From Candidatus Iainarchaeum sp. (GTDB taxonomy: Archaea; Micrarchaeota; Micrarchaeia; Anstonellales; Bilamarchaeaceae), in assembly GCA_028714535.1 (NCBI GenBank), contig JAQTME010000006.1, positions 1-64,000 of the forward strand: DNA of 64,000 nucleotides, read 5' to 3'. This document shows positions 6,150 through 60,962 of the stretch, piece by piece (position 1 is the first letter of the stretch; the number at the start of each line of letters is the position of its first letter). The position numbers were made by a program, and so were the translations under genes. Below the pieces are notes generated by a model. The model did no database searches and was not told the origin of the DNA. It worked only from the letters and a program-made list of their open reading frames with translations.

Positions 6150-7232
6150 TCAAATCGCAGGCGGGGTTATATCCACGCGCGACTGGACGTACCGCAGCTT
6201 CAGCGCCTCGAATATCTTGTCCAGCTCTGCGGCCGGGAGGTCCAGCATGATGGCCGCGTCCCTGAGCTCCCGCAGCCGCTCCATGCGGTCCGGGGAGGAC
6301 GGCATGAGGACGAGCGGCACGACGCCCTTGGACGCTATTTCCGATGCGGCGGCCTGGACCTCGGGGCAGAGGGGCTTCATCGCGGCCGCTATCTTCGCCA
6401 GCTCCTGTCCAGAGCTCAGGGGGTCGTACTCCCTGCCCACGCGCCTCATGAAGAAAAGCATCTTGGGATGGCTGAACGGAAGGGCGGACATGCCGAGGCC
6501 ACGGCCTATGAAGATGAGCTTGCCTGCGGATTCCGCATCCGAGAAATCAGGGCGCTCGACGCAGCAGGCCACGTATGACGGCTTGGCCATGCCGAGCGCG
6601 CAGCTGTGCAGGAGCATGTGGGAATCCCTTTTTTCGTCCGATGACGTGAAGGAGCGCAGGATGATGAGGATGTCTCCGATGGCGTAGCCGTCGATGGCGC
6701 CGGCAACCCGGTCGGCCTGCTTGGCGCATATGAGGAAATACCCGGGCAGGGCGGTGTTCGCCTCCCTGCATTTGGAAAGCAGGCGCTGGCCTTCCTTGAA
6801 GTCCAGCGAATCCGGCTTTGGCATGGCGAACGACACGGCGCCCTCCTCGAGCACGCCGTGCAGGTGGCTCCGGTCCACCCATTCCGGAAGCAGGTCGAGC
6901 GCAGGCAGGACCGCGCCGGGGCCGGCCCCGAGCGATTTCGGGAGCGGGGGGATCTCATGCTCTGACGGGACCACAGGCTGTATCGGGGGAAGGGTGAGCG
7001 GCGCAGCCCTCGGCTCGGGGGCTGCCGGAAATGCGGTTTTTGCGGCGCTTGGCGCCTTCACGATTTTTTTCGGCGCCTTTTTCTTCAGCGCCGGCTTCTT
7101 CCGCAGCGGCGCCTTTTTGGCAGGCTTCACCTTCGGCGGCGCTTTCTTTTTTATCCTGGATTTGGGAATCTTCTTCGCTTTCCGGACGGGCGCTTTCCGT
7201 TTAGGGGCAGGTTTCTTTTTCGCTTTAGCCAT
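6150..7232 (-). CDS. Unknown protein with basic Lys/Pro/Ala-rich N-terminus
   Basis: I do not recognise this protein. The preferred start is the ATG at 7232 (MAKAKKKPAPKRK), giving 360 residues; an open extension upstream would overlap the mscL gene. About 75 residues of Lys/Ala/Pro-rich sequence, like a histone-H1 tail, precede a globular domain of about 250 residues (PEWVDRSHLHGVLEEGAVSF through the C-terminus). No catalytic motif is evident. It lies 14 nt downstream of mscL and may be part of the same transcript. Confidence 0.65.
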   Translation of the reverse strand: MAKAKKKPAPKRKAPVRKAKKIPKSRIKKKAPPKVKPAKKAPLRKKPALKKKAPKKIVKAPSAAKTAFPAAPEPRAAPLTLPPIQPVVPSEHEIPPLPKSLGAGPGAVLPALDLLPEWVDRSHLHGVLEEGAVSFAMPKPDSLDFKEGQRLLSKCREANTALPGYFLICAKQADRVAGAIDGYAIGDILIILRSFTSSDEKRDSHMLLHSCALGMAKPSYVACCVERPDFSDAESAGKLIFIGRGLGMSALPFSHPKMLFFMRRVGREYDPLSSGQELAKIAAAMKPLCPEVQAAASEIASKGVVPLVLMPSSPDRMERLRELRDAAIMLDLPAAELDKIFEALKLRYVQSRVDITPPAI

Positions 7233-12568: not shown

Positions 12569-15500
12569 ATGGGCGGACCAGCACAGAAAGAGCAGGACCT
12601 CACGCAACGGATAGACACCAGCGAGGCCACCCTCAGGGCGGTGCTCAGCAGCGTGCCGTCCCCCATGGCAGCCAAGTCGGCACAGCTCACCGGCCAGGTT
12701 GAGAACGCGGAGGGCCGCGTGCGCGAACTGATTGGCCTCGCGAAGCAGATAGACGGCATGTTCGGCCGCAGTGTGGCTGGCGAGATAGCCGACATCTCCA
12801 AGGAGATCGGCCGCATGCGCGCCCAGCTCGGCGCCATAGGCACTGAGCAGGTGGCTGGCGTGAACGAACGCTACCGCGGCCAGGCCCAGCGCATAGACCA
12901 GGAGCTGAGCGGAGTGGAAACGCGCCTGGGCGGCAGGTCGCTTTCAGAATCCAGGGATGCCTTCAACAATGCACGCGCGGGGGTGGAGATGCTTTCCGAA
13001 ACCATATCCGCGGCCAGGGGCCTGTTCACGGCCGGCGCGCCGCAGGAGATGGTGGCCGCCACGGACATGGCGCTCGAACTCTTCAGCAAAGGCGAGCCTG
13101 AGCGCGCGAGGCTGCTGCTCAAGGCAGCGAACATGTTCATAGACAACAGGGAGTTCTTCACCAGCGACACAGGAAAGCCCGGCGCCGCAAGCCTGGCGGT
13201 GTTCGCAACAGCGCTGGCTGACGGGCAGATGGACACCGCCAAGGCGGACGCCATCCTGGGCAGGTTCATGAGCTCCCTGGCCTACCCGCCCGAGCAGAGG
13301 GCGGCTGACAGGGACGTCATAGCCGGGAGCGTGAAGGAGCTCGGGGCTGAGGCAGCAGGGAAGATAGCGGCCACACTCGACACATGGCTGGGGCAGGAGA
13401 ATGTGGAGGGCGCGAAAAAGCTTGCGGACATGGCATTCACGTACATGAAGCTGGCCGAGGCCGGCAAGGATGCCGCGGCCCTGGACACCCTGAAAGCTGC
13501 GATGATGGTTTATGCGGACACGGGGCTGCAGGAAGCCGGCGCCAGGTTCTCCGACACTGCGGCGCGCATGATGTTCGCAGGCGACATCGGGAAGCTCAGG
13601 GACACGGTCAGCGCCTGGGGCCTGGGAGCGCCGAAGTCCGTGACGCAGAACGCGCTTGAAAGGACAGAGGAGCTCCTCCAGGAGAAAAAGTACGGGGAGG
13701 CAGGGAACCTGCTCACATTCACGGCGATGTATGCCGACAGCATCAACACGCTCGGCCTGGCGAAGAGGCCGGATGCGCCGCTCAGCCAGGACGCGGCCAG
13801 CAGCATAGGCAACATGGCCAGGGCGCTCGGCGCGCTCGGGCGCGGCGAGGCCATGGATGACGGCACTGACGCGGGGATGCTGTTCGTGGAAAACTACAAG
13901 GCGGCGGTCCGCAGCGGCCAGGCGATGGCGCTCCAGCGCAGCTACCAGGGCCTTAGGCAGAAATTCGACGGGAATGTGGCTTGGGCGAAGGGGCTGGAGC
14001 CAGGGCTGGTGCCGCTGGGCACCAGACACAAGGACGGGACCTGGCCTGGCAGCATGAAGATTGCCGAATTGCGCGAATACGAAACGAAATCAGGCGATGC
14101 CGCATTGAAGGGGCAGACGCTCGACCAGCTTCTCACGGCCTGCGGCAGGGCGGCGCAGAGCGGCGATGCTGAGGCATACGGCAGGTCCATGGACGCGTTC
14201 ACGAAGAGGTTCTCGCTCGTCTCGTCAAGATACTTCGCAGGGCAGATGGCCGGTGGAGTAGAGCAGATGGCCAAGGCCCTGGAATCCATAAAGAAGGCGT
14301 ACGGCGGGGGGGGGCCTGCTGATGCGTCTTCCAGGCTGGACAGGCTAGGCGACGGCATGCGGGAATTCTCCGCAGAGCTGCGCAGCGGGGCGAAGCTGGA
14401 TGAGACCGTCCCGAGGCTGCAGTACGATGCGCTGTGCAGCGCGTTCAAGCGCGAGCAGGCAGCGGCAATGATAACCAACCAGGCCGGACTGAACGAGGGC
14501 TATGCGTCCATGGCCAAGGGCATCACAGGGAGCATGGCCGGGGTCAGCCTGAAGGAAAGCACAGTGCATTTCACCAATGCGAAGAAAGCGCTGCTGAACG
14601 GCGACAATGCAACGGCCAGGAGAGAATACGAGGCAGCCATGAACCAGCGTCAGGCGGCCCTGGCGCTGTTCAGCGCGTTCGGGAAGGAGAAGGAAGGCGG
14701 CGTGGACGTGAGGCCGCTGTTCGACGGCTGGCGCAAGACCCACATGGACATATTCGACGGCGTGCTTGCGGGGAAGGACACTGCGAAGCTGCAGGAACGC
14801 GTGGGGCTCGTTGAGATTTCTGTGTTCGCGCTTCCGGAAAAAGAGCGCGGCTTCATTGATTTCTCCCGTGGGCAAAAGAATATAAGGGAGTTTGCGCTTG
14901 CAGGAAAGACCGCCGAGGCAGAGGCCGAATGGGCCAGGATGCAGAAAGCGCTCGAGATGCAGAAGCTCTGGACCAACGTGGGGAAGACCGTAGCCGGCAT
15001 CGCCGTGGGCTTCGTGCCTGGCGGGCAGCTGGTCTCGGCGGCCATATTCACGAGCATGGTGACCAACCAGGCTATAGACGAGGCCGCGGCCACGGGCCGC
15101 GTGAGCGGCATGACCTGGGCCATGCTCGGCATAACGGTCGCGACCGTGGGGCTCGGCGGCGTGGTGAGCGAACTGAAGCAAGCGGCAGAAATCGCGAAGT
15201 CCCTCGGAAGGTTAAGGGCAGCGGCCACATACGGCACCGCAGCGAAAGGGCTCACGGTCACAGGGCTGGGCGCGGGCGCGGTGATGACCGGGCTCGCGAT
15301 ACCAGCGACCATACAGGCGTTCAGGGAAGGCAGGTACGGGGAGGCGTGGTTCAACGTGGCCATGATGGCATTCCCGTTCGCGCACATGGGGGCGGTGCAC
15401 GTGCGCGGCAGGATAACTGCCGCGCGCACCAGGGCAGCAGACGCCAAGGCCGCAGGCGAATTCAACAGGGAGATGGAAGCGCTGCTGCACGGGAAGGCGG

Positions 15501-50896: not shown

Positions 50897-50918
50897 AAAA
50901 CGCCGAGGGCAGGATTTG
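50897..50918. repeat. attL (displaced copy of tRNA-Ser 3' end)
   Basis: AAAAC then GCCGAGGGCAGGATTTG, identical to the right copy. The flanks are not tRNA-like, so this is the displaced host 3' end. It lies between the ACT gene and the integrase. In the 50803-51051 gap the remaining sequence is GC-rich and open on the plus strand up to TAG at 50998-51000. Confidence 0.9.
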
Positions 50919-51051
50919 CCGTGACGCGCGGCTCCTGGTCTGGGAGGCCCGGGCACGTGCCCCCCAGCGGCCATACACGGCCGTCCCGTCGCCTTCATAG
51001 TGTCCCTTTATGTCTTTTTCAGTGCATATACTCTTTTTGAGGTGGTGAGGG

Positions 51052-51852
51052 ATGGACCGTGAATTCAAGGAGTTCAGCCGCAGCTTCGCCCGGCGCGTGG
51101 CCCGGGCGCCGCACTGGCAGATCAAGGAGCTCAGCAAGATCTGCCGCGACGCTGCCAAGGCCCGGTTCCCCTGGCACACCAGGAAGTGCGAGCTCATAGA
51201 AAAGGCATTCACGGACCAGGAGCTCGCGCAGCTCCTGGAGGTGGTGGACGATCCGCAGGACCGGCTCTGCTACATGGCCCTGGCCCTCCTGGGCCTGCGC
51301 GTAGGCGAGCTGGCGCAGCTGCGCGGCCGTGACCTCCAGGGAGATGAGCTCCGCATCACGGCCTCCAAAGGATCCTTCAGCGGCCTCCTGCGGCTGCCTC
51401 CTGCACTCCTGGAGATGATCCCGCCCAGGAGGCCGGGCGAGCTCCTGTTCTCCAGGACGGCAAAGCAGCTCAGGGACCACTTCGGCAGGTACCGGCATGA
51501 GGCCGGCCTGGACCAGATCTACTGCTACACAGAGCCCGGAGGACGTGCCCGGCACAGGAATCCGCGTTACCGGCTGTCCCTTCATTCGCTGAGGCATTAT
51601 GCGATCCAGCGCGTGTACAACGCAACCCGGGACCCGGACCTGGCGCGGCGTTTCGCCAGGCACCGGAAGCTGCAGACCACGCTGGGATATTTCAAGAGCT
51701 CGCGCAAGGAGGACGTGGAGGACGTGCTCGCGCAACTCTCCGGCCACCTGAAAGCATGTGCCTCTCCTGGGCGGCTCCAGGGCACGCGGCAGCTTTATAT
51801 AGGGTCTGTGGTTGCAGAAAGTGGGGCGAAAACGCGGCCGCTGCCATGCTGA
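51052..51852 (+). CDS. int: Tyrosine recombinase (integrase)
   Basis: A 266-residue integrase with the full catalytic set: Arg83 (LGLRVGELAQL), Lys106, His178-xx-Arg181 (LHSLRHYAIQ), His204 and Tyr213 (TLGYFKSS). The ATG follows GAGGTGGTGAGGG. It is intact and not split by the attachment site, unlike the SSV-type partitioned integrases. It should catalyse integration at tRNA-Ser and, with helpers, excision. Confidence 0.93.
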   Translation: MDREFKEFSRSFARRVARAPHWQIKELSKICRDAAKARFPWHTRKCELIEKAFTDQELAQLLEVVDDPQDRLCYMALALLGLRVGELAQLRGRDLQGDELRITASKGSFSGLLRLPPALLEMIPPRRPGELLFSRTAKQLRDHFGRYRHEAGLDQIYCYTEPGGRARHRNPRYRLSLHSLRHYAIQRVYNATRDPDLARRFARHRKLQTTLGYFKSSRKEDVEDVLAQLSGHLKACASPGRLQGTRQLYIGSVVAESGAKTRPLPC

Positions 51853-51994
51853 AAAAATCCTTAATTAGGTTAGTTTAACCTACTCCAGCAATCGTCCGGC
51901 GTAAAACTCAGCTGGCCGGCCACGAGCTCGAGCAGCTGACCAGGATCTCCTGGAGATCGAGCTCGAGGACCTACGCTGTGGTGGTAATGAGTGG
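51853..51994. other. Non-coding gap with dyads at the end of the structural operon
   Basis: Between int (plus) and the holin-like gene (minus). It contains AGGTTA-GTT-TAACCT, a 7-bp dyad GATCTCC-T-GGAGATC, and two GAGCTCGAG copies flanking it. These may end convergent transcription or bind a protein. No convincing gene. Confidence 0.45.
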
Positions 51995-52240
51995 TTAGGC
52001 TGTCCCAATCTTCGGGCCTGTTTGGACTGTGGAGGCCACCTTCCGGGTCCGTCCCTGCTTTGAATTCAGCACGTCCAGGTGGATGGACAAAGAACGCGTG
52101 GCGTCCGTGTTTGCAGTGGTGGAAGCGGTCAGATTGTCCAGGGCGGATGTGATTTTGGTGAGGAGCACCTGCCGGTCGTAGATCAGGTATGCCACGAACA
52201 GGCCCAGGGCCCCGTACTGCACCAGCGCGTCTTCGATCAT
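51995..52240 (-). CDS. Small membrane protein, holin-like
   Basis: An 81-residue protein with one N-terminal TM helix (ALVQYGALGLFVAYLIYDRQ) and a helical, charged tail. The layout resembles BhlA/holin-type phage proteins, but single-TM proteins are too generic for certainty. Its ATG directly follows the previous stop (TGAATG). Last gene of the structural operon, a common place for lysis or release functions. Confidence 0.5.
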   Translation of the reverse strand: MIEDALVQYGALGLFVAYLIYDRQVLLTKITSALDNLTASTTANTDATRSLSIHLDVLNSKQGRTRKVASTVQTGPKIGTA

Positions 52241-52399
52241 TCAGATGCGCCCCGCCACATACGCAGCCCAGAGCACGTCCAGCTTCTTCTTGTCGGTGGT
52301 GGCGTCTTGCCCGTCCTGCTTCCGCTTGGCCTTCTCGGCTATGCGGTCCTCGTTTTTGTAGGAGGGCGTCGGGTCTATAGTCTCAGCTGCTTTCGGCAT
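52241..52399 (-). CDS. Small charged protein (52 aa)
   Basis: Encodes MPKAAETIDPTPSYKNEDRI followed by a Lys-rich helix and LDVLWAAYVAGRI. Unknown. The ATG is 1 nt after the spike gene stop, and its own stop abuts the holin-like gene, which supports expression. Confidence 0.6.
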   Translation of the reverse strand: MPKAAETIDPTPSYKNEDRIAEKAKRKQDGQDATTDKKKLDVLWAAYVAGRI

Positions 52400-52400
52400 G

Positions 52401-53384
52401 TCAATCCCCCACCAAGCCGTAGCCCTTGCAGCTCGGCGTGTCTGCGTCTGAACCTGTGCCCTGGCTCAGCGTGATCTTCATCTTGGCTCCCGTGAGCGTT
52501 TGTGCGCCGCCCAGGTCTACCCAGCTATCCACGGCCTGGCCGGTCTTCTGCCAGGTCCCATCTCCGGTGTAATCTATGGCCCAGGTGCAGGTGTTGCCAG
52601 TGGCCAGGGCGAGAAGATAGGGGTGGAGCCTGAGCCGTGAATAACTGCCGTCCATGGCCGTGAGGGCGATGGTCTGAATGTGCCGGGAGGTTGCAGCTGC
52701 CGTTGCTTCAGTCGTTACGCTCACGATGCCGTCTGCGTACCCACTGCCGGTGCTGCTATGGTCCGTGAAATTGAACACCGCGCCACCAGTTTTGGGATAG
52801 CTAACGCCGGTGTTGTAGGCGCGGCTGTAGTTGCTGCCGGAGTTGTCGAGAAGGATATAGTAAACGGTCGATGCGGCCAGGGCCACATGTGGGGAGAATG
52901 TTGCGACGTCTCCTGAAAAGGTGGCCGTCCCAAGGACCGTCGTCTTGTTGCTCGCCGTAATCCGGCACCGCGTGGCTGTGCAGGTGCTCTTTTTTGTTAC
53001 GGACACAATTGGATTGCATGCACTGGTTGTTGTTATCTGCTCACCAGCTGCTCCAGCATCCACCGTGTTTGAGCCCAGGGTTTCCCCAAGCGTTTCCGGA
53101 GCTGTAGCCGCAAAGTGCGCGGTGTGAGAAGTGCCGCTGAAAATCGTGTCTGTGTTCGCCGTGTCCACCGTATTCCTTTTGCCGTCGGCGTCTGAAAAGA
53201 ATTCTGGTTGTGCCGCACTATAATTTATGCCGGCCGTGCTTTCTACGAAGACGTTGCCGACCATGAGCTCGGCTATCTGATTGTTCAGGGATGCGTTGAG
53301 TTTCGGCGGTGTCACCGCACCAGCTGCCAGCTTGCTGGTCGTGACTGAGCCGTCAGTTACCGCGTTGCTGGAGCCAAACCCCAT
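52401..53384 (-). CDS. Spike or receptor-binding virion protein (probable)
   Basis: A 327-residue protein, beta-rich and Ser/Thr/Gly-rich. Its N-terminus DGSVTTSKLAAGAVTPPKLN is the trimerising repeat found at the base of many phage fibres. A beta domain with two internal cysteine pairs follows (SACNPIVSVTKKSTCTATRC), and the C-terminus ends in a discoidin/jelly-roll-like strand pattern (WVDLGGAQTLTGAKMKITLS). Likely the host-recognition spike at capsid vertices. It adjoins the preceding gene with no gap. Confidence 0.65.
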   Translation of the reverse strand: MGFGSSNAVTDGSVTTSKLAAGAVTPPKLNASLNNQIAELMVGNVFVESTAGINYSAAQPEFFSDADGKRNTVDTANTDTIFSGTSHTAHFAATAPETLGETLGSNTVDAGAAGEQITTTSACNPIVSVTKKSTCTATRCRITASNKTTVLGTATFSGDVATFSPHVALAASTVYYILLDNSGSNYSRAYNTGVSYPKTGGAVFNFTDHSSTGSGYADGIVSVTTEATAAATSRHIQTIALTAMDGSYSRLRLHPYLLALATGNTCTWAIDYTGDGTWQKTGQAVDSWVDLGGAQTLTGAKMKITLSQGTGSDADTPSCKGYGLVGD

Positions 53385-53729
53385 TTAATCCGCCTCGTAT
53401 GCGTTCACCATGACCTGGAAGTGCCCGGCTGTTGTGGTGTTGGCATTCTTAACCAGGAATGCGACGGTTGCGCCCTTGGGGACGGGAACGTCCAGGCGTG
53501 GGAGCTCTATGCTGTTGATCGTGGAAAGCGAGCTGATGTCATCCGCGACAACGAAGCCGTTGATGCTGATCGTGAACGTGCCGTCAGCCTGGAGCGTGCT
53601 GTCGTAGGCGATCACCACTTCCTCTAGCAGTATGTTCCCGTCCTTGTCGTTCGTCCAGGTGTACGGCGTTTCGTCTGATGCGGCCACGCTCTGCGGACCT
53701 GAGACTTTTCCAACGAAGCGGATCTTCAT
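53385..53729 (-). CDS. Small beta-rich structural protein
   Basis: A 114-residue protein with alternating hydrophobic strands (EEVVIAYDSTLQADGTFTIS, SIELPRLDVPVPKGATVAFL). Size and position before the spike gene suggest a single jelly-roll minor capsid or penton protein. Not recognised by sequence. Confidence 0.55.
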   Translation of the reverse strand: MKIRFVGKVSGPQSVAASDETPYTWTNDKDGNILLEEVVIAYDSTLQADGTFTISINGFVVADDISSLSTINSIELPRLDVPVPKGATVAFLVKNANTTTAGHFQVMVNAYEAD

Positions 53730-53924
53730 TCAGACAACCTCCTGGATTATCTTCTCGAATATGCCCTCGGCGACCTTCTGGATCTTCTTCGCCGTTTTCT
53801 GCTGCGGACCCGGAGTGCGCGCCGCGATTATCACTGGCGCCAGGACTGGGCTTGAATAGCTGATGATCTTCGCTACGGTCTTCGAATGTTTTTTCACGGC
53901 TCGGCGTGCGAGATCCCCGATCAT
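53730..53924 (-). CDS. Small basic protein (64 aa)
   Basis: Encodes MIGDLARRAVKKHSKTVAKI, a hydrophobic centre (SSPVLAPVIIAARTP) and an amphipathic end (IFEKIIQEVV). Unknown; possibly membrane- or DNA-associated in the virion. It overlaps its upstream neighbour by 4 bp. Confidence 0.6.
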   Translation of the reverse strand: MIGDLARRAVKKHSKTVAKIISYSSPVLAPVIIAARTPGPQQKTAKKIQKVAEGIFEKIIQEVV

Positions 53925-54331
53925 TCTTTCCTCACCGCCACGAACAGGAGCAACAGCACTATGCCGCAGCCTATCAGCGCCATTTTCAGCATGTCGTCTT
54001 CCTGTTCCTTGATCGTACGCCCTACTCCAGCCACTGCGGTCTGGACTGCTGCACCCGCTCCGGTCACGACGCCTACAGCTGCACCCGTGACCTTGGCCTC
54101 CACGCTGTTGATGGTCTGCTGTGCACCAACCACGGCTCCGGTTACGGCACCTGTGGCTGCGGCCACGGTGCTCTGCAGGGGTTTCCAGATCAGGGCCCCC
54201 AGGTCCTGCTCAATCTTAGAGACGCCCGCCTGGATGGCGTTCATGAGTGACTGCGCAATCTGATCAAGCGACCAGAAGGGGAAGGGCCGGATTGTATAGA
54301 CATTCGGCAGCCTAATGTCCAGGGGGTTCAT
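53921..54331 (-). CDS. Virion membrane protein with C-terminal TM
   Basis: A 136-residue protein. The central Ala/Gly/Val-rich amphipathic stretch (about 55-105) is followed by one TM helix (MALIGCGIVLLLLFVAV) near the C-terminus. Alternating small residues are common in viral internal-membrane proteins. Function unknown. Confidence 0.6.
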   Translation of the reverse strand: MNPLDIRLPNVYTIRPFPFWSLDQIAQSLMNAIQAGVSKIEQDLGALIWKPLQSTVAAATGAVTGAVVGAQQTINSVEAKVTGAAVGVVTGAGAAVQTAVAGVGRTIKEQEDDMLKMALIGCGIVLLLLFVAVRKE

Positions 54332-54335
54332 GAGA

Positions 54336-54806
54336 TCACGACCCTATGAAGCCAGGGCCATACCGTGAATTGAGGTCTGCGATATTCGCCTGCCTCGCGG
54401 CTTCGCGCTCAGAGGCCGAGGCGTGAGCCCCGCCTATGTCCACCAAGTGAGAGCCACCGCCCACATCGGTTACCCGGGTAACGAGAGGATTTCCGCCGAC
54501 ATTTGACTGTATCGGCGTTCCAGGTCCCTGGGTCCTTGCAATCTGCGCGGCTGCGGTCGCTGCCGCTCCTGTCCCATGTGCGGCCACGTAGCCGGCCGTG
54601 CCGGCACCGTAGCTGTCAGGCGCAGGCGTCGGGTTGGTGAGGCCGGCGCCGGTATTCGCGTCACCCTGGGAGGCTGCACTGGCCGTGCTGCCGGTTATGC
54701 CCGAGCCAGCGGCGCTGGCGTCGCTGCCCGGCTTCTTGGAAAAGTAAATCGCGGCCAGGGCTACAACCCCGGCCACAACAACCAAAATCGCTGCCGCGCC
54801 CTTCAT
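54336..54806 (-). CDS. Virion membrane protein with N-terminal TM
   Basis: A 156-residue protein with one N-terminal TM (AILVVVAGVVALAAIYFS) and a Gly/Ala/Ser/Thr-rich linker. The C-terminal HASASEREAARQANIADLNS resembles the ASEEEHEAARQANLKRMGKA end of the protein at 57853. It overlaps the capsid gene by 4 bp. Probably a membrane-associated virion protein. Confidence 0.6.
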   Translation of the reverse strand: MKGAAAILVVVAGVVALAAIYFSKKPGSDASAAGSGITGSTASAASQGDANTGAGLTNPTPAPDSYGAGTAGYVAAHGTGAAATAAAQIARTQGPGTPIQSNVGGNPLVTRVTDVGGGSHLVDIGGAHASASEREAARQANIADLNSRYGPGFIGS

Positions 54807-55666
54807 GCCGGGGGCGCCTCGGTGTAGAACACGTAGAGGCTCAGGGTGTCCGCTGTACCGTTGATGAGCTTCAGCACGGTCCTGTCGCTTGCAACGAACG
54901 GAGTCACGGGCAGGAGGAGATAGCCCGAGATGTGCGCGGCGCCCCTGGCCGTGTCCAGGTATTGCTGGAGGTCGGCAGTCAGGAGGTCGTGCTCCTCACC
55001 ACCGGCCGCCGAAAAGACAGCTTCGGTCAGGTATGCCTCGGTCAGGCCCAGCGCGATCGCGGTGATCCTCTTTCCACGCGGAAGGTAGGACGCGATGCTG
55101 TTGGTGCCGATTGCAAGGGAGACGGTCGTCTTGGTGACACCTTCGGTCACATCAGTGCTACCGTCGCGGTACATGCCGGTTACTGTGAAGGTGACTGATG
55201 CCCCGGTGCATCCGGAGGTCGCCAGCACGGAGTACGGCGCATAGACCACCTGGATCTTTGCCGGGAGGTCCTTGCTGTCCACGCTCCACTGGAGCACGAA
55301 CTGGTTTGTCTCGGCGGTGTTCTGCACTGCGCTGGCCCAGCTCTCGCTCTTTCCGTACCTGGAGCTCAGGTACTGGAGCAGGTTGAGGTCCGTGCCGTTG
55401 ATGGACTGGGAAATGTTCTTCCCCGAGCGCGTGAGGATCCGGATCTCAGCTATCGCCCGGTTGATCGTCTGCGCGCTGGACAGCGTACCGGCTGCGGTCA
55501 CGCTCAGCTGCACGCTGAAGCCGACCAGGTCGCCCAGGTTTGGGATCTCTATGGCCGTGCCGTTCTGCTGAGCCGCGCTCAGCGCCTTCGTCTCAGCCAT
55601 TATTGACTTTGAGCGAAGCGTCATGTCCCCGTTCTTTGCCTTGTACTGTCCGTAAAGTCCTGGCAT
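54803..55666 (-). CDS. Probable major capsid protein (double jelly-roll candidate)
   Basis: A 287-residue, beta-rich protein without cysteine clusters or TM helices. The ATG at 55666 follows GGTGA. Two successive domains are visible. One (about 25-140) has IEIPNLGDLVGFSVQLSVTA and ends near QFVLQWSVDSKD. The other (about 145-285) has VTFTVTGMYRDGST, KRITAIALGLTEAYLTEA and SGYLLLPVTPFVASDRTVL. The size is close to the smallest double jelly-roll proteins such as PM2 P2. Two-domain structure, operon position and the linked A32-type ATPase support the call; the fold itself is inferred. Confidence 0.65.
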   Translation of the reverse strand: MPGLYGQYKAKNGDMTLRSKSIMAETKALSAAQQNGTAIEIPNLGDLVGFSVQLSVTAAGTLSSAQTINRAIAEIRILTRSGKNISQSINGTDLNLLQYLSSRYGKSESWASAVQNTAETNQFVLQWSVDSKDLPAKIQVVYAPYSVLATSGCTGASVTFTVTGMYRDGSTDVTEGVTKTTVSLAIGTNSIASYLPRGKRITAIALGLTEAYLTEAVFSAAGGEEHDLLTADLQQYLDTARGAAHISGYLLLPVTPFVASDRTVLKLINGTADTLSLYVFYTEAPPA

Positions 55667-55671
55667 GTTTT

Positions 55672-56034
55672 TCACCCGGCCCTCATCGAAATCCCTTTCG
55701 TCAGGTCCAGAATTATCCCCGCACTCGCGGCCCATTTTGCCGCCACCAGGATCGCAGCTGCGAATGCCGCGCCCAGGGACAGTTTGAGGCCGATGTCGTT
55801 CTTGAACACAGTCATGAACACGGCCGCGAGAGCAAGTGAAATCACCAGCTGGAGCTCCTGCGTCCAATTGGCCAGCTGCGGCACAACCTTTGTGATCATC
55901 GGCATCACGTAAACAGTCAGTACGCCGACCACGGCAGCCCCGCCGAACATCCACAAAACGTCAGCTAAAAGAGAGGTGCCCAATCCCGGGATTTTCTTGG
56001 CCGCTTCGACGGCCCCAGAAACAACATCAGTCAT
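55672..56034 (-). CDS. Three-TM membrane protein, first gene of structural operon
   Basis: A 120-residue protein with hydrophobic segments at about 22-45 (ADVLWMFGGAAVVGVLTVYV), 62-78 and 86-105. Unknown role, likely an internal-membrane virion protein. Its promoter lies just upstream. Confidence 0.65.
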   Translation of the reverse strand: MTDVVSGAVEAAKKIPGLGTSLLADVLWMFGGAAVVGVLTVYVMPMITKVVPQLANWTQELQLVISLALAAVFMTVFKNDIGLKLSLGAAFAAAILVAAKWAASAGIILDLTKGISMRAG

Positions 56035-56058
56035 ACTGAAGGGTGCGGATTAGGATGG

Positions 56059-56070
56059 ATTTATAACCCC
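56059..56070 (-). promoter_or_regulatory. Promoter of the structural operon
   Basis: TTATAAATC on the minus strand, centred about 28 nt before the ATG at 56034. It probably drives the genes from 56034 down to 51995. Confidence 0.6.
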
Positions 56071-56074
56071 ACCA

Positions 56075-56113
56075 ACGTCGGAGAAATCAGGAATTCTCGG
56101 GTTGTTCCGACGT
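56075..56113. promoter_or_regulatory. Candidate operator upstream of the structural promoter
   Basis: Perfect 8-bp dyad ACGTCGGA / TCCGACGT (56075-56082, 56106-56113). Another TCCGACGT is at 56175-56182, and ACGTCGG recurs in the RHH/AbrB divergent promoter at 60482-60488. Confidence 0.45.
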
Positions 56114-56130
56114 GGAAGCCGGGTTTTGCT

Positions 56131-56754
56131 TTATATACCCCTTATCGGCTCTGGACCATGTATCTGGCACCTGTTCCGACGTACGGGGTCGCTCCTGGGC
56201 CAGTACAGGTACTGGTACGGGCGCAGCCTTTGCATGAGCTCGGACGGCTTCATTCCGTCGGTGGCCGGCATGTAGGCGTCCACCTGGTCCAGGGCCGAAC
56301 CGCAGACTGAGAAGACGATCAGGTGCTGGCACTGCCGGATCAGGGGCGCCATGCCGACGAAGTCCTGCGCCAGGAGGAGGGCCCCGACGTGCCTATGCCG
56401 GCCGCGCCGTATCAGCGTGAGGAGATTGTCCGGTATGGAATTCACGCCGACGTAGTCCATGACCTCCGGGACCGTGAAAACCCTCCGGCCACGTGCAAAT
56501 ACGACGTTGCAGACGTGGGCGAATTGCGCCTCCTTGTCCGCACGGCCCTCCTGGAAGGGATCGTAGGCTATGGCTTTCTGCCTCCAGTCCACGGCCGCAA
56601 GCCGGCTGACTGCCCCGGGGAACTCGCCTTCAGTGTCATAGACGAAGTACGGGAAGCCCCAGCCCTGGAGAAGGTACTTGGCCAAGGCTGTCTTCCCGCA
56701 CTCGCTGGGGCCGATTATGAGCGTTTTATCCTGAAGGCGGAACAGGGGCAACAC
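56131..56754 (-). CDS. HerA/FtsK-superfamily genome-packaging ATPase (A32-like)
   Basis: A 207-residue P-loop ATPase, the size of viral A32-type packaging enzymes. Walker A is GPSECGKTA (about 15-23). FVYDTEGEFPG and the AIAYDP strand follow. The Walker-B-like RRVFTVPEVMDYVG keeps Glu97, but the preceding Asp is Pro. The HerA-type sensor is GALLLAQDFVGMAPLIRQCQHL (Gln130). It would pump viral DNA into the capsid. GTG start at 56754; overlaps the preceding gene by 29 bp. Confidence 0.82.
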   Translation of the reverse strand: MLPLFRLQDKTLIIGPSECGKTALAKYLLQGWGFPYFVYDTEGEFPGAVSRLAAVDWRQKAIAYDPFQEGRADKEAQFAHVCNVVFARGRRVFTVPEVMDYVGVNSIPDNLLTLIRRGRHRHVGALLLAQDFVGMAPLIRQCQHLIVFSVCGSALDQVDAYMPATDGMKPSELMQRLRPYQYLYWPRSDPVRRNRCQIHGPEPIRGI

Positions 56755-57460
56755 CTATCGCAGCTGCGGCCGCCGGCGACTTCTTGCTCATGTCGGCCTG
56801 GACCTTGTCCCAGGCCTTCTTTGCAGCCGGGAACCTCGACGCTACGAACATGCCCTCGATCACCAGGATGTCGCCCCAGAAGATGAGGTCGGCGTACGTC
56901 ATGTCCTTCACGTACTTCAGCGCGATCCTCCGGCCCAGCCGCCCGAACTGCTTACGCTCAACGTCGCTCAGTGGTTTCTCCAGGGCCGTGGCCGGGAGGT
57001 CATGGAGGTACAGATAGAGCTCCGCGACCATATCCCTGAGCTCCTGGAGGTCCTGAGCAGAGATCACATCAGACGCCGCGTCCCCGATCTCTGAGATTGT
57101 TTCTGGGAATTCCTGGACTTGAGGCGGTGATGCCTGGCCCTCCTGGGCCGGCTGTGCCGCCGGTGCAGCTGGAGGCGGCGGCATCTGTTCAACCTTCAGC
57201 ATGTCATCTATTGGTACATCCTCAGGCTTCGTCGGTAGTTCTGACGTGGAAGCCGGTGCCGGGCTTTGTGCATTCCCGGGTTTTGATTTTTCCTGTGCTT
57301 TCGCTGTGCCAGCTGAGGAATTCCCGGTTTTTGCCAGGAACTCTTTATACACATTTTCCGAGTGCTTACGACCGGCATGGGCCAGTCTTGCGGCCTCCTT
57401 TGGATTTTTCCCCTGGCTGTACAGCTCAAGTAGCTGCTGTTTTTTGGTTGTCGATTCCAT
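56726..57460 (-). CDS. HTH protein with Pro/Ala linker
   Basis: A 244-residue protein. The N-terminus (residues 1-40: LLELYSQGKNPKEAARLAHA) looks like a resolvase-type helix-turn-helix. A long Pro/Gln/Ala-rich linker leads to a helical C-terminal domain (VERKQFGRLGRRIALKYVKD). Unknown; DNA binding linked to packaging is possible. Confidence 0.6.
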   Translation of the reverse strand: MESTTKKQQLLELYSQGKNPKEAARLAHAGRKHSENVYKEFLAKTGNSSAGTAKAQEKSKPGNAQSPAPASTSELPTKPEDVPIDDMLKVEQMPPPPAAPAAQPAQEGQASPPQVQEFPETISEIGDAASDVISAQDLQELRDMVAELYLYLHDLPATALEKPLSDVERKQFGRLGRRIALKYVKDMTYADLIFWGDILVIEGMFVASRFPAAKKAWDKVQADMSKKSPAAAAAIGVAPVPPSG

Positions 57461-57710
57461 CAGTCTTCACCTTCACAAATTCCTTCACCAGATCGCCCAG
57501 CTTCCCGCCCACGTACACTCTGCCGAGAGCCGTGCCGTCCGCGTCTGCTACGTTGATCATGAGCTCATACTTCCCGGCGCCGGTGTCCAGGACCTTCACG
57601 CCGCCGCTGTCCACGTGCTTTTGCAGCAGCTTCCGGATCTCCCCCTTCATGATCGCCTCGATGTCGATACCGAAACGCCTGGCGACCTTCACTGCCTTGT
57701 CAGTATCCAT
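57426..57710 (-). CDS. Small alpha/beta protein
   Basis: A 94-residue protein: an N-terminal helix pair (AVKVARRFGIDIEAIMKGEI) and a beta segment (GKYELMINVADADGTALGRV). Unknown. The C-terminus overlaps the next gene by 35 bp. Confidence 0.6.
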   Translation of the reverse strand: MDTDKAVKVARRFGIDIEAIMKGEIRKLLQKHVDSGGVKVLDTGAGKYELMINVADADGTALGRVYVGGKLGDLVKEFVKVKTDGIDNQKTAAT

Positions 57711-57856
57711 CGTTCTTCCTCCATGTGCTTTTTCAGCGATGATCTCCAGTGCTGCACTGTGGCCAGGGTCTTCTTTGTCTGGAGCTCCGGGTGCCGATGG
57801 AGCTCGGCCAACTGGCCCATCGCACCCAGGATGATCGCGTTGTTGCGATCACTCAT
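57689..57856 (-). CDS. Small protein (55 aa)
   Basis: MSDRNNAIILGAMGQLAELH, then a basic helix ending HMEEERWILTRQ. The start overlaps the preceding stop (ATGA at 57853-57856), and its own end overlaps the next start, which supports translation. Unknown function. Confidence 0.6.
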   Translation of the reverse strand: MSDRNNAIILGAMGQLAELHRHPELQTKKTLATVQHWRSSLKKHMEEERWILTRQ

Positions 57857-58182
57857 GCTTTCCCCATCCGCTTCAGGTTGGCCTGCCTGGCCGCTTCGTG
57901 CTCCTCCTCACTGGCCGGAGGGCGCGTGCTCAGGATCTTGTCCCCGGTCGCCACTGTGTAGCGGACCGTGAGGGGATCGCCGTCCACGTCAATCTCTATC
58001 GGCGTGTTGGGACCCTCCCTCAGAAGGATCGCGGCAACCTGGCCGGCCTTCGTGACCCTCGTCTGGCCGTTGAAACTGACGCTATGCGGCTGCTTCAACA
58101 GCTCGTCCAGATCTGCTTTGCTAAGTTCCATTTTCACCAGCTCCTCCAGGAGGGGCCTGCGCTCCTCCGTGAACATGATCAT
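57853..58182 (-). CDS. Small hypothetical protein
   Basis: A 109-residue protein with an N-terminal helix (LLEELVKMELSKADLDELLK), a small beta region (IEIDVDGDPLTVRYTVATGD), and the tail ASEEEHEAARQANLKRMGKA, which resembles that of the 54336 protein. Unknown. Confidence 0.6.
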   Translation of the reverse strand: MIMFTEERRPLLEELVKMELSKADLDELLKQPHSVSFNGQTRVTKAGQVAAILLREGPNTPIEIDVDGDPLTVRYTVATGDKILSTRPPASEEEHEAARQANLKRMGKA

Positions 58183-58331
58183 TCCCCATAGAGCGCCCTG
58201 GCCTCCTCAAGGCCTGAACGCGCCTGGCGCACGGCCAGCTGGCCAAGGGTCAGGCTGATCGTAACGCCGTTCTTGTTCGTGAAAATCAAAAAGAGAAAGG
58301 AATCTCCCGGGCCCTGGAGGTCGAGCATCAT
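58179..58331 (-). CDS. Small hypothetical protein (50 aa)
   Basis: The ATG at 58331 overlaps the previous stop (ATGA). The protein has a strand-rich start (SFLFLIFTNKNGVTISLTLG) and a helical end. A longer upstream start would overlap the neighbour fully. Unknown. Confidence 0.55.
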   Translation of the reverse strand: MMLDLQGPGDSFLFLIFTNKNGVTISLTLGQLAVRQARSGLEEARALYGE

Positions 58332-58540
58332 GGTTTCGGCCTCCGTGCCAGGATACCGGCCAGACGGCTCCGTAGTTGGCGGTACTCCCACTCACTCAGA
58401 CGGCTCAGCCTGGGCGTTGCAGACCACCAGCTCGCAGGTGCCGGAATTTCTCCAGGCACTTCTTCATAGAAAAACAACGCCGCAAATGGCCTGCCGAACC
58501 AGATCCGCTCAGTCGCAAAAATCTTTTCCAAAATGTTCAT
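58328..58540 (-). CDS. Small hypothetical protein (70 aa)
   Basis: MNILEKIFATERIWFGRPFA, then a Trp/Arg-rich C-terminus (WEYRQLRSRLAGILARR). Basic. Starts 11 nt after its upstream neighbour. Unknown. Confidence 0.55.
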   Translation of the reverse strand: MNILEKIFATERIWFGRPFAALFFYEEVPGEIPAPASWWSATPRLSRLSEWEYRQLRSRLAGILARRPKP

Positions 58541-58550
58541 AGTGCATCCC

Positions 58551-58865
58551 TCAGTCTATGCGCGTGATCGCGTTTCCTTCGAGGCCGGTGATCAACTTCC
58601 GGATCTTCGCCACGGCCTCCAGGACGGCCGTGTGGTCCTTGTCGTCCAGCTTCTTTTTGTTTGCCAGCAGCAGGTACCTCTGCATATTATCGAGGTTGCC
58701 CTGGACCTTCAGTTTCGTCTCCTCCAGGCTGAGTGCGTGGCCGCGTTTGACAGCCACGGCCTGCTCCAGGATCAGGGAGATGTCAGAGCCGCAGTAGTCT
58801 CTGGTCGCTTTGCTGACCCACACATTCCCCTTCACTTTTTCTTGTCCGTTGGCTGGTCGCCCCAT
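58551..58865 (-). CDS. Helical hypothetical protein
   Basis: A 104-residue, mostly helical, charged protein (SLILEQAVAVKRGHALSLEE, DHTAVLEAVAKIRKLITGLE). A GGTGA precedes the ATG. It is the first gene left of the cruciform/iteron region and may encode an initiator or regulator, but no motif supports this. Confidence 0.55.
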   Translation of the reverse strand: MGRPANGQEKVKGNVWVSKATRDYCGSDISLILEQAVAVKRGHALSLEETKLKVQGNLDNMQRYLLLANKKKLDDKDHTAVLEAVAKIRKLITGLEGNAITRID

Positions 58866-58878
58866 CGTTTCACCGGGT

Positions 58879-59165
58879 TTTTTCCTGAATTTCCTGACTG
58901 TTTTCCTGAAATTCAGGAAAATACTTCCGCTCTGAAAAACATGAGTTTATAGCCGAAATTCGGCGGTAAACTCATGCAGACGCCGCCGCCTACGACGTAG
59001 TAACTACTACGCCGTTACAACGACCGTGACACTGCGCTTGGACGAAAGGTCCAAGAGGGTGGTCTGGAGGGGTTTTACTCCGAATTTCGGCGGTAAACCC
59101 CATGCGTGTTATCGGAGGTTTTTTCCTGATTTTCCTGAATTCCTGAATTTCCTGACTGAATTTTC
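58879..59165. other. Iteron/cruciform region, candidate replication origin or control region
   Basis: TTCCTGA-type iterons lie at both ends (58882-58921 and 59121-59159). Two related palindromes lie between: arms 58940-58949/58967-58976 around GCCGAA-A-TTCGGC, and arms 59069-59077/59094-59101 around CCGAA-T-TTCGG. Both share the inner TTCGGCGGTAAA. A perfect TTTTCCTGAA-A-TTCAGGAAAA (58901-58921), CGTAGT-AACT-ACTACG and CTTGGAC-N5-GTCCAAG lie within. The interval 58866-59074 has no gene; the right iterons overlap the C-terminal codons of the next gene. Confidence 0.6.
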
Positions 59166-59284
59166 GCTTGCTTCAGGACCTTGAATTTTTGATTGCCGCA
59201 TTTTTTGCAGCGGACATCGTACTGTGAGACTGGCGCCTGGCACTTTGCACAGATCCACGTTTTCTCAGGTGCTGGTCCATTCAT
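59075..59284 (-). CDS. Zinc-ribbon protein
   Basis: A 69-residue protein with a clear CxxC..CxxC ribbon (WICAKCQAPVSQYDVRCKKCG) near the N-terminus. A low-complexity C-terminus is encoded by the iteron block. Similar rubredoxin-like ribbons occur in archaeal viral regulators. Unknown function. Confidence 0.65.
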   Translation of the reverse strand: MNGPAPEKTWICAKCQAPVSQYDVRCKKCGNQKFKVLKQAKIQSGNSGIQENQEKTSDNTHGVYRRNSE

Positions 59285-59311
59285 AGCATCGCCTTCTGTG
59301 GTGATCTCAGC

Positions 59312-59561
59312 TCACGCTTTCGCTTTGCACTCCGGGCACGTGCCCCATTTCACGCCTTCCTTCTCCTGTTCGCAGGTCCTGCACTTCTTGAGCTCTGTCG
59401 ATTTCTCTTTCCGGGGGGGGGGCGGCTGGCCCTGCAGCTGCAGCAGGGATGGCCCTGCGTTTCACATAAGCGAAGTACGCCTGCACGTCCTCGGGCAGGC
59501 CTTCGACCTCGGCCACATCTCCAGCATCGTCCAATCTCACTCTGACCTCGCCTTTTTCCAT
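59312..59561 (-). pseudogene. Zinc-ribbon protein frame-split at a 10-C run
   Basis: The start MEKGEVRVRLDD (ATG 59561, after AGGAGG) reads to the Pro tract encoded by ten C residues (G run at 59413-59422). Beyond it the same frame gives no recognisable domain and ends at 59307. The neighbouring frame gives KCRTCEQEKEGVKWGTCPEC, a perfect zinc ribbon, ending at 59312. A run of nine C would join them. This is either a sequencing/assembly error, a real mutation or phase variation; the intended product would be about 82 residues. Confidence 0.6.
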
Positions 59562-59565
59562 GATC

Positions 59566-59808
59566 TCAATCCTCCTCATCGTCGCCGCTTTCGTCCCAGA
59601 TGCATGTGCAGCTGCTCAACAGTTTTCCGCACCAGGGGCATCTCGGCTCATCAATTTGGCGGGCGCCACCAGCCGGCAAAGTAGTGAGAGGCGGGAGTGT
59701 CAGCTGGTGGCACCGTTCGCCAGGAGGATGAGGAGAGCCGGCAGACTGCAACGGTGCTCGACATCCAGCTGCCGGGTCCCCTATCCTCCCATGCGCGTGA
59801 AATTTCAT
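59566..59808 (-). CDS. Small protein with CPWC motif
   Basis: An 80-residue protein with RCPWCGKLLSSCTC, a possible zinc site, and an acidic end (DESGDDEED). The ATG overlaps the previous stop (ATGA). Unknown. Confidence 0.6.
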   Translation of the reverse strand: MKFHAHGRIGDPAAGCRAPLQSAGSPHPPGERCHQLTLPPLTTLPAGGARQIDEPRCPWCGKLLSSCTCIWDESGDDEED

Positions 59809-59978
59809 GGAGCTGCCTCGCTCGGCAAAACATTCTCACAGGCAGCCAGGAACAGGGCTATGTCGTTGAAATGCCCAATGTACTCTGCCGCCTTGGATCT
59901 AGGAAACGCCTTCATAACTTCTGTCAGCGCTTCACTGCACGACTTCGCTTCCTCCTTCGATGCTTTTCCCTGTGTCAT
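59805..59978 (-). CDS. Small helical protein (57 aa)
   Basis: MTQGKASKEEAKSCSEALTE onward, helical throughout. ATG at 59978 overlaps the previous stop (ATGA); longer frames upstream lie over other genes. Unknown. Confidence 0.6.
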   Translation of the reverse strand: MTQGKASKEEAKSCSEALTEVMKAFPRSKAAEYIGHFNDIALFLAACENVLPSEAAP

Positions 59979-60103
59979 AAAACCATCTCCGTGATCGCGG
60001 CGGCCAGCTGGCCGCGTTTCTCCGGCGTTGAATAATTGCTCGGGCTGATGTGCGGGACGACGTTGTTGAGGGCGGCCACACAGGCACGCAGAGGGACGTT
60101 CAC
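59975..60103 (-). CDS. Small protein (42 aa)
   Basis: GTG start at 60103 follows GGAGG and overlaps the previous stop (GTGA). MNVPLRACVAALNNVVPHIS onward. Unknown. Confidence 0.55.
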   Translation of the reverse strand: MNVPLRACVAALNNVVPHISPSNYSTPEKRGQLAAAITEMVL

Positions 60104-60288
60104 TTTTTGGCCTCCGTGTGCTCTTTGTGGAATTTGTAACCCATTTCGGCGATGAACGCATCTCTCCATTCTTCGGCCGCCTGCTCATACTTCACAGCGA
60201 GACGCGCGTAGTACATCCAGTAGCAGAGCGGCCGTCTGCATCGTCTTCCGTTCACGATGGAGCATGGAATAGACGGGATGTCTTTCAT
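60100..60288 (-). CDS. Small Cys/Tyr-rich protein (62 aa)
   Basis: IPCSIVNGRRCRRPLCYWMY at the N-terminus has three cysteines; the C-terminus is basic. ATG overlaps the RHH gene stop (ATGA). Unknown. Confidence 0.6.
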   Translation of the reverse strand: MKDIPSIPCSIVNGRRCRRPLCYWMYYARLAVKYEQAAEEWRDAFIAEMGYKFHKEHTEAKK

Positions 60289-60431
60289 GAGCTCGCCTTC
60301 TTTTTGAGTGTATCCAGTTCGTCCAGGAGGACGTTCAGCGCCGCATCGTCTGGGAGTGCAGGATGTGGTTTGTGCTTGCGAAAACGAGCCTTAGTCTGCG
60401 CGGAAACCCGGAGGGATGTTATTTCATTCAT
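60285..60431 (-). CDS. Ribbon-helix-helix regulator
   Basis: A 48-residue protein with the archaeal viral/plasmid RHH pattern: strand TSLRVSAQTKARFRKHK, then DDAALNVLLDELDTLKKK. First gene of the small-protein operon. Its ATG lies 27 nt from a TATA box (TATATAAA, about 60453-60463), so leaderless. Probably represses the divergent promoter region. Confidence 0.7.
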   Translation of the reverse strand: MNEITSLRVSAQTKARFRKHKPHPALPDDAALNVLLDELDTLKKKASS

Positions 60432-60536
60432 GCGCGTATATTTTCATTAATGTTTATATACCTTTCATTTTACGCCGTTGAACGTCGGTAGATACATTTA
60501 AATATATTTTTATATATGTTTAGCACAGGTGATAAC
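60432..60536. promoter_or_regulatory. Divergent promoter region between RHH and AbrB genes
   Basis: Two AT-rich TATA elements: GTATATAAA (minus, about 60458) for RHH, and ATTTTTATATATG (plus, about 60507) for AbrB. Between them is ACGTCGG (60482-60488), the same core as at the structural promoter. Layout resembles a lysogeny switch. Confidence 0.55.
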
Positions 60537-60899
60537 ATGCTTGATAGCGGAACCTTGTATCTCGACGACAAAAGGAGGATCGCAACCTTGCCTAAAGCCA
60601 TTCGTGCAAAAATGAAGCAGGACGGTTGGACGGACGGCAACATCATCTGGGATTACAACGAACAGACCAAGTGCCTCGTTATGAAACAACGAAATACAGT
60701 GATTCAAATCGACCGTGAAGACATCACAGAAACCAGAGATAACCTCAGAGAAATGAACCGGCTAATGAAAAAAATGCGCACTGCAACTACACTATCCGAG
60801 CAGGACTCAATCAAAGTGGAGATGCAGCAGCTATCTACAAAGGCCATGCACCACATGGAGCGATTAGCTGCAAAAGAAAACGCCGAGGGCAGGATTTGA
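60537..60899 (+). CDS. AbrB-like regulator ending in the attachment site
   Basis: A 120-residue protein. The N-terminal swapped-hairpin AbrB-like domain is visible (LYLDDKRRIATLPKAIRAKM, then NIIWDYNEQTKCLVMKQ), followed by a helical C-terminus. AGGTGAT precedes the ATG. The last codons (ENAEGRI) are att core. The TGA stop is made by the last two core bases plus one base of tRNA-Ser, so the reading frame is closed by the host. In the excised circle it would run on for 27 codons (see findings). Confidence 0.75.
   Translation: MLDSGTLYLDDKRRIATLPKAIRAKMKQDGWTDGNIIWDYNEQTKCLVMKQRNTVIQIDREDITETRDNLREMNRLMKKMRTATTLSEQDSIKVEMQQLSTKAMHHMERLAAKENAEGRI
60877..60898. repeat. attR (functional 3' end of tRNA-Ser)
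   Basis: Identical to 50897-50918. It provides the 3' acceptor and T-arm bases that keep tRNA-Ser intact after integration. Confidence 0.92.
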
Positions 60900-60962
60900 A
60901 CCTGCAATCCCAAAGGGACCGGTTTTCAAGACCGGCGCACTACCGGGTTATGCGACCTCGGC
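60881..60962 (-). tRNA. tRNA-Ser (UGA)
   Basis: Complete type II cloverleaf on the minus strand: acceptor GCCGAGG / CCTCGGC, anticodon stem CCGGT/ACCGG around CTTGAAA with anticodon TGA, variable arm TCCC-TTT-GGGA, and T arm GCAGG-TTCAAAT-CCTGC. Its 3' end is the viral attachment site. Confidence 0.95.

Follow-up and report, generated by a model that had tools for sequence, protein, structure and literature searches.

A repeat-and-hairpin block in a Micrarchaeota double-jelly-roll provirus, a candidate origin or copy-control site

Viruses of the Micrarchaeota (DPANN) are hardly known, and a full-text literature search for Micrarchaeota together with double jelly-roll gave no match in the library covered. 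The window considered here, a stretch of 64,000 nucleotides from an archaeon of this phylum, raises the question of what is controlled at a block of about 290 bp in which eight copies of TTCCTGA/TCAGGAA form two arrays of four with four hairpins between them. A preliminary description of this DNA had seen in the block a symmetric candidate viral origin. Judged from its sequence, the block is most likely a repeat-and-hairpin control site of a known type in a little-known virus group.

The setting of the block is viral. The region around it is a complete-looking double-jelly-roll provirus: a 22-bp direct repeat bounds it, an integrase gene adjoins and the corresponding site is empty in a congeneric genome (G015), a combination which documents site-specific integration at a tRNA-Ser gene. 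The hallmark features are:

50897-60898, provirus of 10.0 kb in the 3' end of tRNA-Ser(TGA), delimited by the 22-bp direct repeat, the tRNA and the empty site
51052-51852, plus strand, tyrosine integrase (Pfam Phage_integrase, 5.8e-9; phrog_216)
54803-55672, minus strand, double-jelly-roll capsid protein, with relatives in three Micrarchaeota genomes and a matching AF2 model
56131-56754, minus strand, A32-like packaging ATPase (phrog_2666 terminase, 1.7e-14; weak Pox_A32)

The att repeat, AAAACGCCGAGGGCAGGATTTG, occurs at 50897-50918 and 60877-60898; one copy lies within the 3' end of the tRNA-Ser(TGA) gene (60881-60962) and the integrase gene adjoins the opposite one. In G015 the flanking genes (kinase, ScpB, tRNA-Ser, then adenylosuccinate synthetase and DHH) lie within 8.4 kb, without the element. 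The host genome of the provirus measures 1.14 Mb and belongs to the Micrarchaeota, and the named relatives that carry a provirus of the same type are likewise Candidatus Micrarchaeota. The AF2 model of the capsid protein, of modest confidence (pLDDT 57), matches PRD1 P3 and the STIV MCP in Foldseek at an E-value of about 1e-11 and AMDV5_4 at 5e-14. Relatives of this protein were found in three of the 300 other genomes of the phylum (L018, L019 and L020), all with a counterpart of the ATPase near the capsid gene; a further candidate ATPase relative, L052, was discarded, its profile match spanning the P-loop only. Neither the phage collection nor IMG/VR contained a sequence match to the provirus, and scans of IMG/VR with the ATPase, the small protein P0002 and the capsid protein (single and aligned) found no relatives. 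At the right border, a divergent gene of 127 aa on the plus strand (60516-60899) reaches with its 3' end into attR and the tRNA; its product could by eye be an AbrB-like regulator and has no notable Pfam match.

The block itself and the two open frames beside it are composed as follows:

58551-58865, minus strand, P0002, 104 aa, with a good codon score, starting 16 nt beyond the left array; candidate iteron binder
58882-58919, plus strand, left iteron array: TTCCTGA at 58882, 58891 and 58903, inverted at 58913
58940-58976, no strand, palindrome A, 18-nt arms with 16 pairs
58992-59015, no strand, middle hairpin, ACGACGTAGTAACTACTACGCCGT
59039-59055, no strand, short hairpin, TTGGACGAAAGGTCCAA
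59069-59101, no strand, palindrome B, 16-nt arms with 13 pairs, related to palindrome A
59123-59155, plus strand, right iteron array: direct TTCCTGA at 59123, 59132, 59140 and 59149, spaced 8-9 bp
59075-59284, minus strand, P0001, small zinc-ribbon frame, its 3' end extending across the right array and into palindrome B

That such a block exists, well beyond chance, is borne out by shuffling, which produced no comparable cluster. In 40 shuffles of the 10-kb element, TTCCTGA/TCAGGAA never occurred more than twice per 300 bp, whereas the block holds eight copies. Its 8-mer repeat-pair score (84) is the highest of the element, against a shuffle maximum of 10; the cluster of short repeats expected of an iteron-type origin is therefore present. 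The second-highest repeat density of the provirus lies at 51147-51350, where copies of CCAGGAG are found within the integrase gene. In the 1.14-Mb host genome the block is the only site with a tandem TTCCTGA cluster, and a protein that binds it would therefore act at one place. We also considered a host Orc1 origin box and rejected it, the surroundings of the host Orc1/Cdc6 gene (C12) being devoid of a TTCCTGA array; blastn of the block against phages gave no match. The two arrays have CAGTCAGGAAATTCAGGAA exactly in common on the minus strand and differ in spacing, which is partly 10-12 bp in the left one, where 58901-58921 also forms a perfect dyad, TTTTCCTGAAATTCAGGAAAA. The symmetry attributed to the iterons does not hold, since seven of the eight point one way and 58913-58919 is the single inverted copy.

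The palindromes fare better. Both lie where they had been placed, although they are imperfect and their mismatches fall at different positions: the arms of A (58940-58957/58959-58976) are 89% complementary and those of B (59069-59084/59086-59101) 81%. Arms of 18 nt with at least 16 pairs appeared in none of 40 shuffles, and arms of 16 nt with at least 13 pairs on average 0.2 times per shuffled element. The inner half said to be common to A and B proved to be an identical right half, TTCGGCGGTAAAC, with differing left halves; exact copies of CCGAAWTTCGGCGGTAAAC number two, and a search of 84 genomes of the order likewise gave two only. The outer arms (CATGAG/CTCATG versus GGGG/CCCC), previously read as a sign of selection on symmetry, do pair in both palindromes but are at most suggestive of it, because a double change is seen in just two pairs (A-T to G-C and T-A to G-C). 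The two hairpins between the palindromes (58992-59015 and 59039-59055) are an addition to the earlier account. Two resemblances to the palindrome core were dismissed: an exact match in IMG/VR, on a 175-kb contig, is by our own estimate about what chance gives in a collection of that size, and GAGAAATTCGGCGGTATAC at 7160 of L019, which lies in coding sequence and forms no dyad, was taken as chance. Elsewhere in the provirus, at 59662-59714, an inverted repeat (GGCGCCACCAGCCGGCA / TGTCAGCTGGTGGCACC) with a fold z of about -5 lies within a small zinc-motif frame.

On the minus strand, the operon runs from a strong TATA box at 60465 through small overlapping frames and the frame 59075-59284 to the block, P0002 and the structural genes. 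The open frame 59075-59284 overlaps the right array and the beginning of palindrome B with its 3' end, where its codon score is poorest; the intergenic gap at the block, of 209 bp, is the longest of the element. Upstream in this operon, at 59307-59579 (minus strand), a zinc-ribbon frame is interrupted by a run of C, probably a homopolymer frameshift (assembly error, decay or phase variation), since another frame continues past the run and reads CRTCEQEKEGVKWGTCPECKAKA and a stop. P0002 fits a strand-helix-helix pattern by eye, and its AF2 model (pLDDT 55) is without a strand; it has no notable Pfam, PDB or NCBIfam match, and Foldseek of this low-confidence model gave no meaningful match. Its homology to ribbon-helix-helix-like (RHH-like) proteins of L019 and L020 was dropped as unproven (z about 0.2), together with a three-row alignment (A3) linking them that scored well only because it had been trained on them. 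Promoters were sought with a TATA matrix trained on 149 upstream regions of host genes, which have the box at about -30 to -23 relative to the start codon. Within the provirus, the strongest TATA boxes fall in one region, and the best promoters at 60448-60521:

60432-60515, no strand, divergent promoter region, free of iterons

The matrix scan detected weak sites only in the block, with no strong promoter (12 bits at the strong sites versus 4.2 in the block, or 18 versus 6.8 on another scale).

Proviruses in three other Micrarchaeota genomes (L018, L019 and L020) allow a comparison of layout. An unbiased repeat-pair scan, in which clusters were counted outside the repetitive structural genes, found one in L019 (6835) and one in L020 (12960), with scores of 26 against a shuffle maximum of 11 and of 24 against 12, respectively, although the repeats of the structural genes outscore both. 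In L019, ATTCCAAAATTGGAAG occurs twice at 6838-7019, at a distance of 166 bp and on either side of two hairpins, and an RHH-like gene follows directly at 7040; in L020, at 12981-13142, repeats of the ATTGCAATACACTTGCAAT type, spaced by about 137 bp, enclose a stretch of 26-32% GC, with dyads of the TTGCAATACACT type around this AT-rich stretch, downstream of the core of an RHH-like gene. Both blocks are noncoding or weakly coding and have no sequence in common with that of the window; the two RHH-like proteins are homologous to one another (z 4.9), with capsid proteins about 31% identical to that of the window in both proviruses. In L018, which has the capsid protein, the same scan found no repeat-flanked block; near its att site it encodes a winged-helix protein of 298 aa (P0006, L018:13694-14590), possibly an alternative replication protein or regulator. 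The recurrence of a repeat-flanked layout in three of four elements, with differing sequences, lends moderate support to an origin; it is given no more weight because the sample is small and the relatives were compared once the first block was known.

The reading that we tentatively favour, at somewhat less than even probability, is that the block serves the excised virus as a cis-acting origin or copy-control site, to which a small virus-encoded DNA-binding protein, perhaps the product of 58551-58865, would bind. It is preferred because the repeats have a single location, the strong promoters lack iterons, the block lacks a strong promoter and the layout recurs. The earlier proposal of a viral origin accordingly keeps the provirus, the blocks of two relatives, the missing strong promoter, the longest gap, the top repeat density and the genome-unique cluster on its side. 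Against it stand the missing initiator and L018, the lack of a block in the latter counting against an origin, by the earlier description's own standard, unless the replication module was exchanged. The unrelated sequences of the L019 and L020 blocks, the higher-scoring repeats of the structural genes there and the lack of detectable homology between P0002 and their RHH-like proteins also weigh against it. Among the element proteins scanned with Pfam and PHROGs, no Rep, primase, MCM, Orc1 or polymerase was recognised and no cognate Rep initiator lies alongside the iterons, P0002 being without a match; a Rep endonuclease with a catalytic tyrosine (Rep-Arvir or HUH) likewise gave no match in the provirus, where distant forms may escape. 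Since no initiator is recognised, origin function is an inference; so are the identity of the binder and the recruitment of host proteins. GC skew, which had been proposed as a check, has its minimum at 59990, near the block, yet follows gene direction and was rejected as evidence.

Under the origin or copy-control reading, the excised, circular form of this Micrarchaeota double-jelly-roll virus would use the block in cis. P0002, the most plausible binder, would bind both TCAGGAA arrays cooperatively; the bound arrays would be brought together, and the protein would assist in extruding or melting the intervening hairpin region. Replication proteins would then load, presumably host-encoded because no viral initiator is recognised. 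Binding to the left array might also reduce the expression of P0002, and autoregulation is allowed in addition since this gene adjoins the block. A bolder and unlikely extension is a class of fast-evolving origins of Micrarchaeota double-jelly-roll viruses in which repeat arrays around a core of 100-170 bp, hairpin or AT-rich, would be bound by a small viral protein that recruits the host machinery without a viral Rep; repeat and binder would change together, the layout would be kept and the module could be swapped, perhaps for P0006 in L018.

The main rival, doubtful in our judgement and less probable than an origin, makes the block the operator or promoter region of P0002 and the late operon, where a small repressor on the repeats would keep the late genes of the provirus silent. 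The left array lies 16 nt before P0002 and would cover the predicted transcription start of a TATA-like GGCTATAAAC in the palindrome (minus strand, 58944-58953), the mismatches of which (GG to TA) give rise to TATAAAC; moreover, RHH regulators of archaeal viruses bind repeated sites, polymerise on DNA and repress their own promoters (PMC5569661). However, the TATA-like sequence scores weakly (4.2 bits, rank 58) and lacks a BRE, P0002 has no TATA at -30 to -23, its position in host genes, the block of L020 lies downstream of the RHH-like gene core and not before it, and the right array and the four hairpins would be left unexplained. It is improbable that the hairpins act in RNA, as a terminator, processing or stability element of the minus-strand transcript where it passes from early to late genes. 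The block folds well (z of -5.3 as DNA, -5.7 and -6.6 as RNA), the value of -6.6 for minus-strand RNA being the lowest of the element, and TTTTT follows palindrome A on that strand; yet palindromic DNA folds well on either strand, no Rfam family was found in the block (Rfam matched the tRNA only), the terminator scan does not list it and the repeats outside the hairpins would have no role. Slightly less probable again is a packaging or partition site, with four 8-9-bp repeats per array under a small protein and feeding the A32-like ATPase that the provirus encodes, for although runs of four adjoining short repeats, direct and occasionally inverted, recall parS of pSM19035 (PMC9499535), no ParA-like protein was found among the element proteins scanned and no observation connects the repeats with packaging.

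An origin here would provide a testable minimal replicon for a double-jelly-roll virus in which no initiator is recognised, and a basis for developing genetic tools; were it an operator instead, the block would still be the place from which the provirus is likely controlled.

Iteron origins of plasmids have about one iteron per two helical turns. The block resembles them in its short direct-repeat arrays adjoining a gene that putatively encodes a small DNA-binding protein. It differs in its spacing (8-9 bp, widening to 10-12 bp within the left array), in having no recognised Rep and in what separates the arrays, where GC-rich hairpins take the place of an AT-rich melting region. The arrays bound by SvtR/AvtR (PMC5569661) and by omega at parS of pSM19035 (PMC9499535) are similar in their tandem short sites, mostly direct with one inverted, and in the adjacent gene for a small putative DNA-binding protein. 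Such tandem repeats are present here at 8-9-bp steps, with cooperative binding putative, whereas P0002 is RHH-like by eye only, no ParA was found among the element proteins scanned and the hairpins that separate the arrays here are without parallel in those systems. In the Natrinema virus SNJ2, a bipartite rolling-circle origin of the Rep-Arvir family was tested genetically, and its binding part differs among relatives (PMC13107129). Like the block, it occupies about 200 noncoding bp of a temperate archaeal virus and places an inverted-repeat binding site beside a hairpin (PMC13107129); unlike SNJ2, with one hairpin and one binding site, the block has four hairpins and eight iterons, its role in replication is putative and the provirus has no recognised DUF7845/Rep-Arvir or other Rep. 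With STIV and AMDV5, finally, the provirus shares the double-jelly-roll capsid fold and an A32-type ATPase, and it differs from them as an integrated 10-kb element of a Micrarchaeota host.
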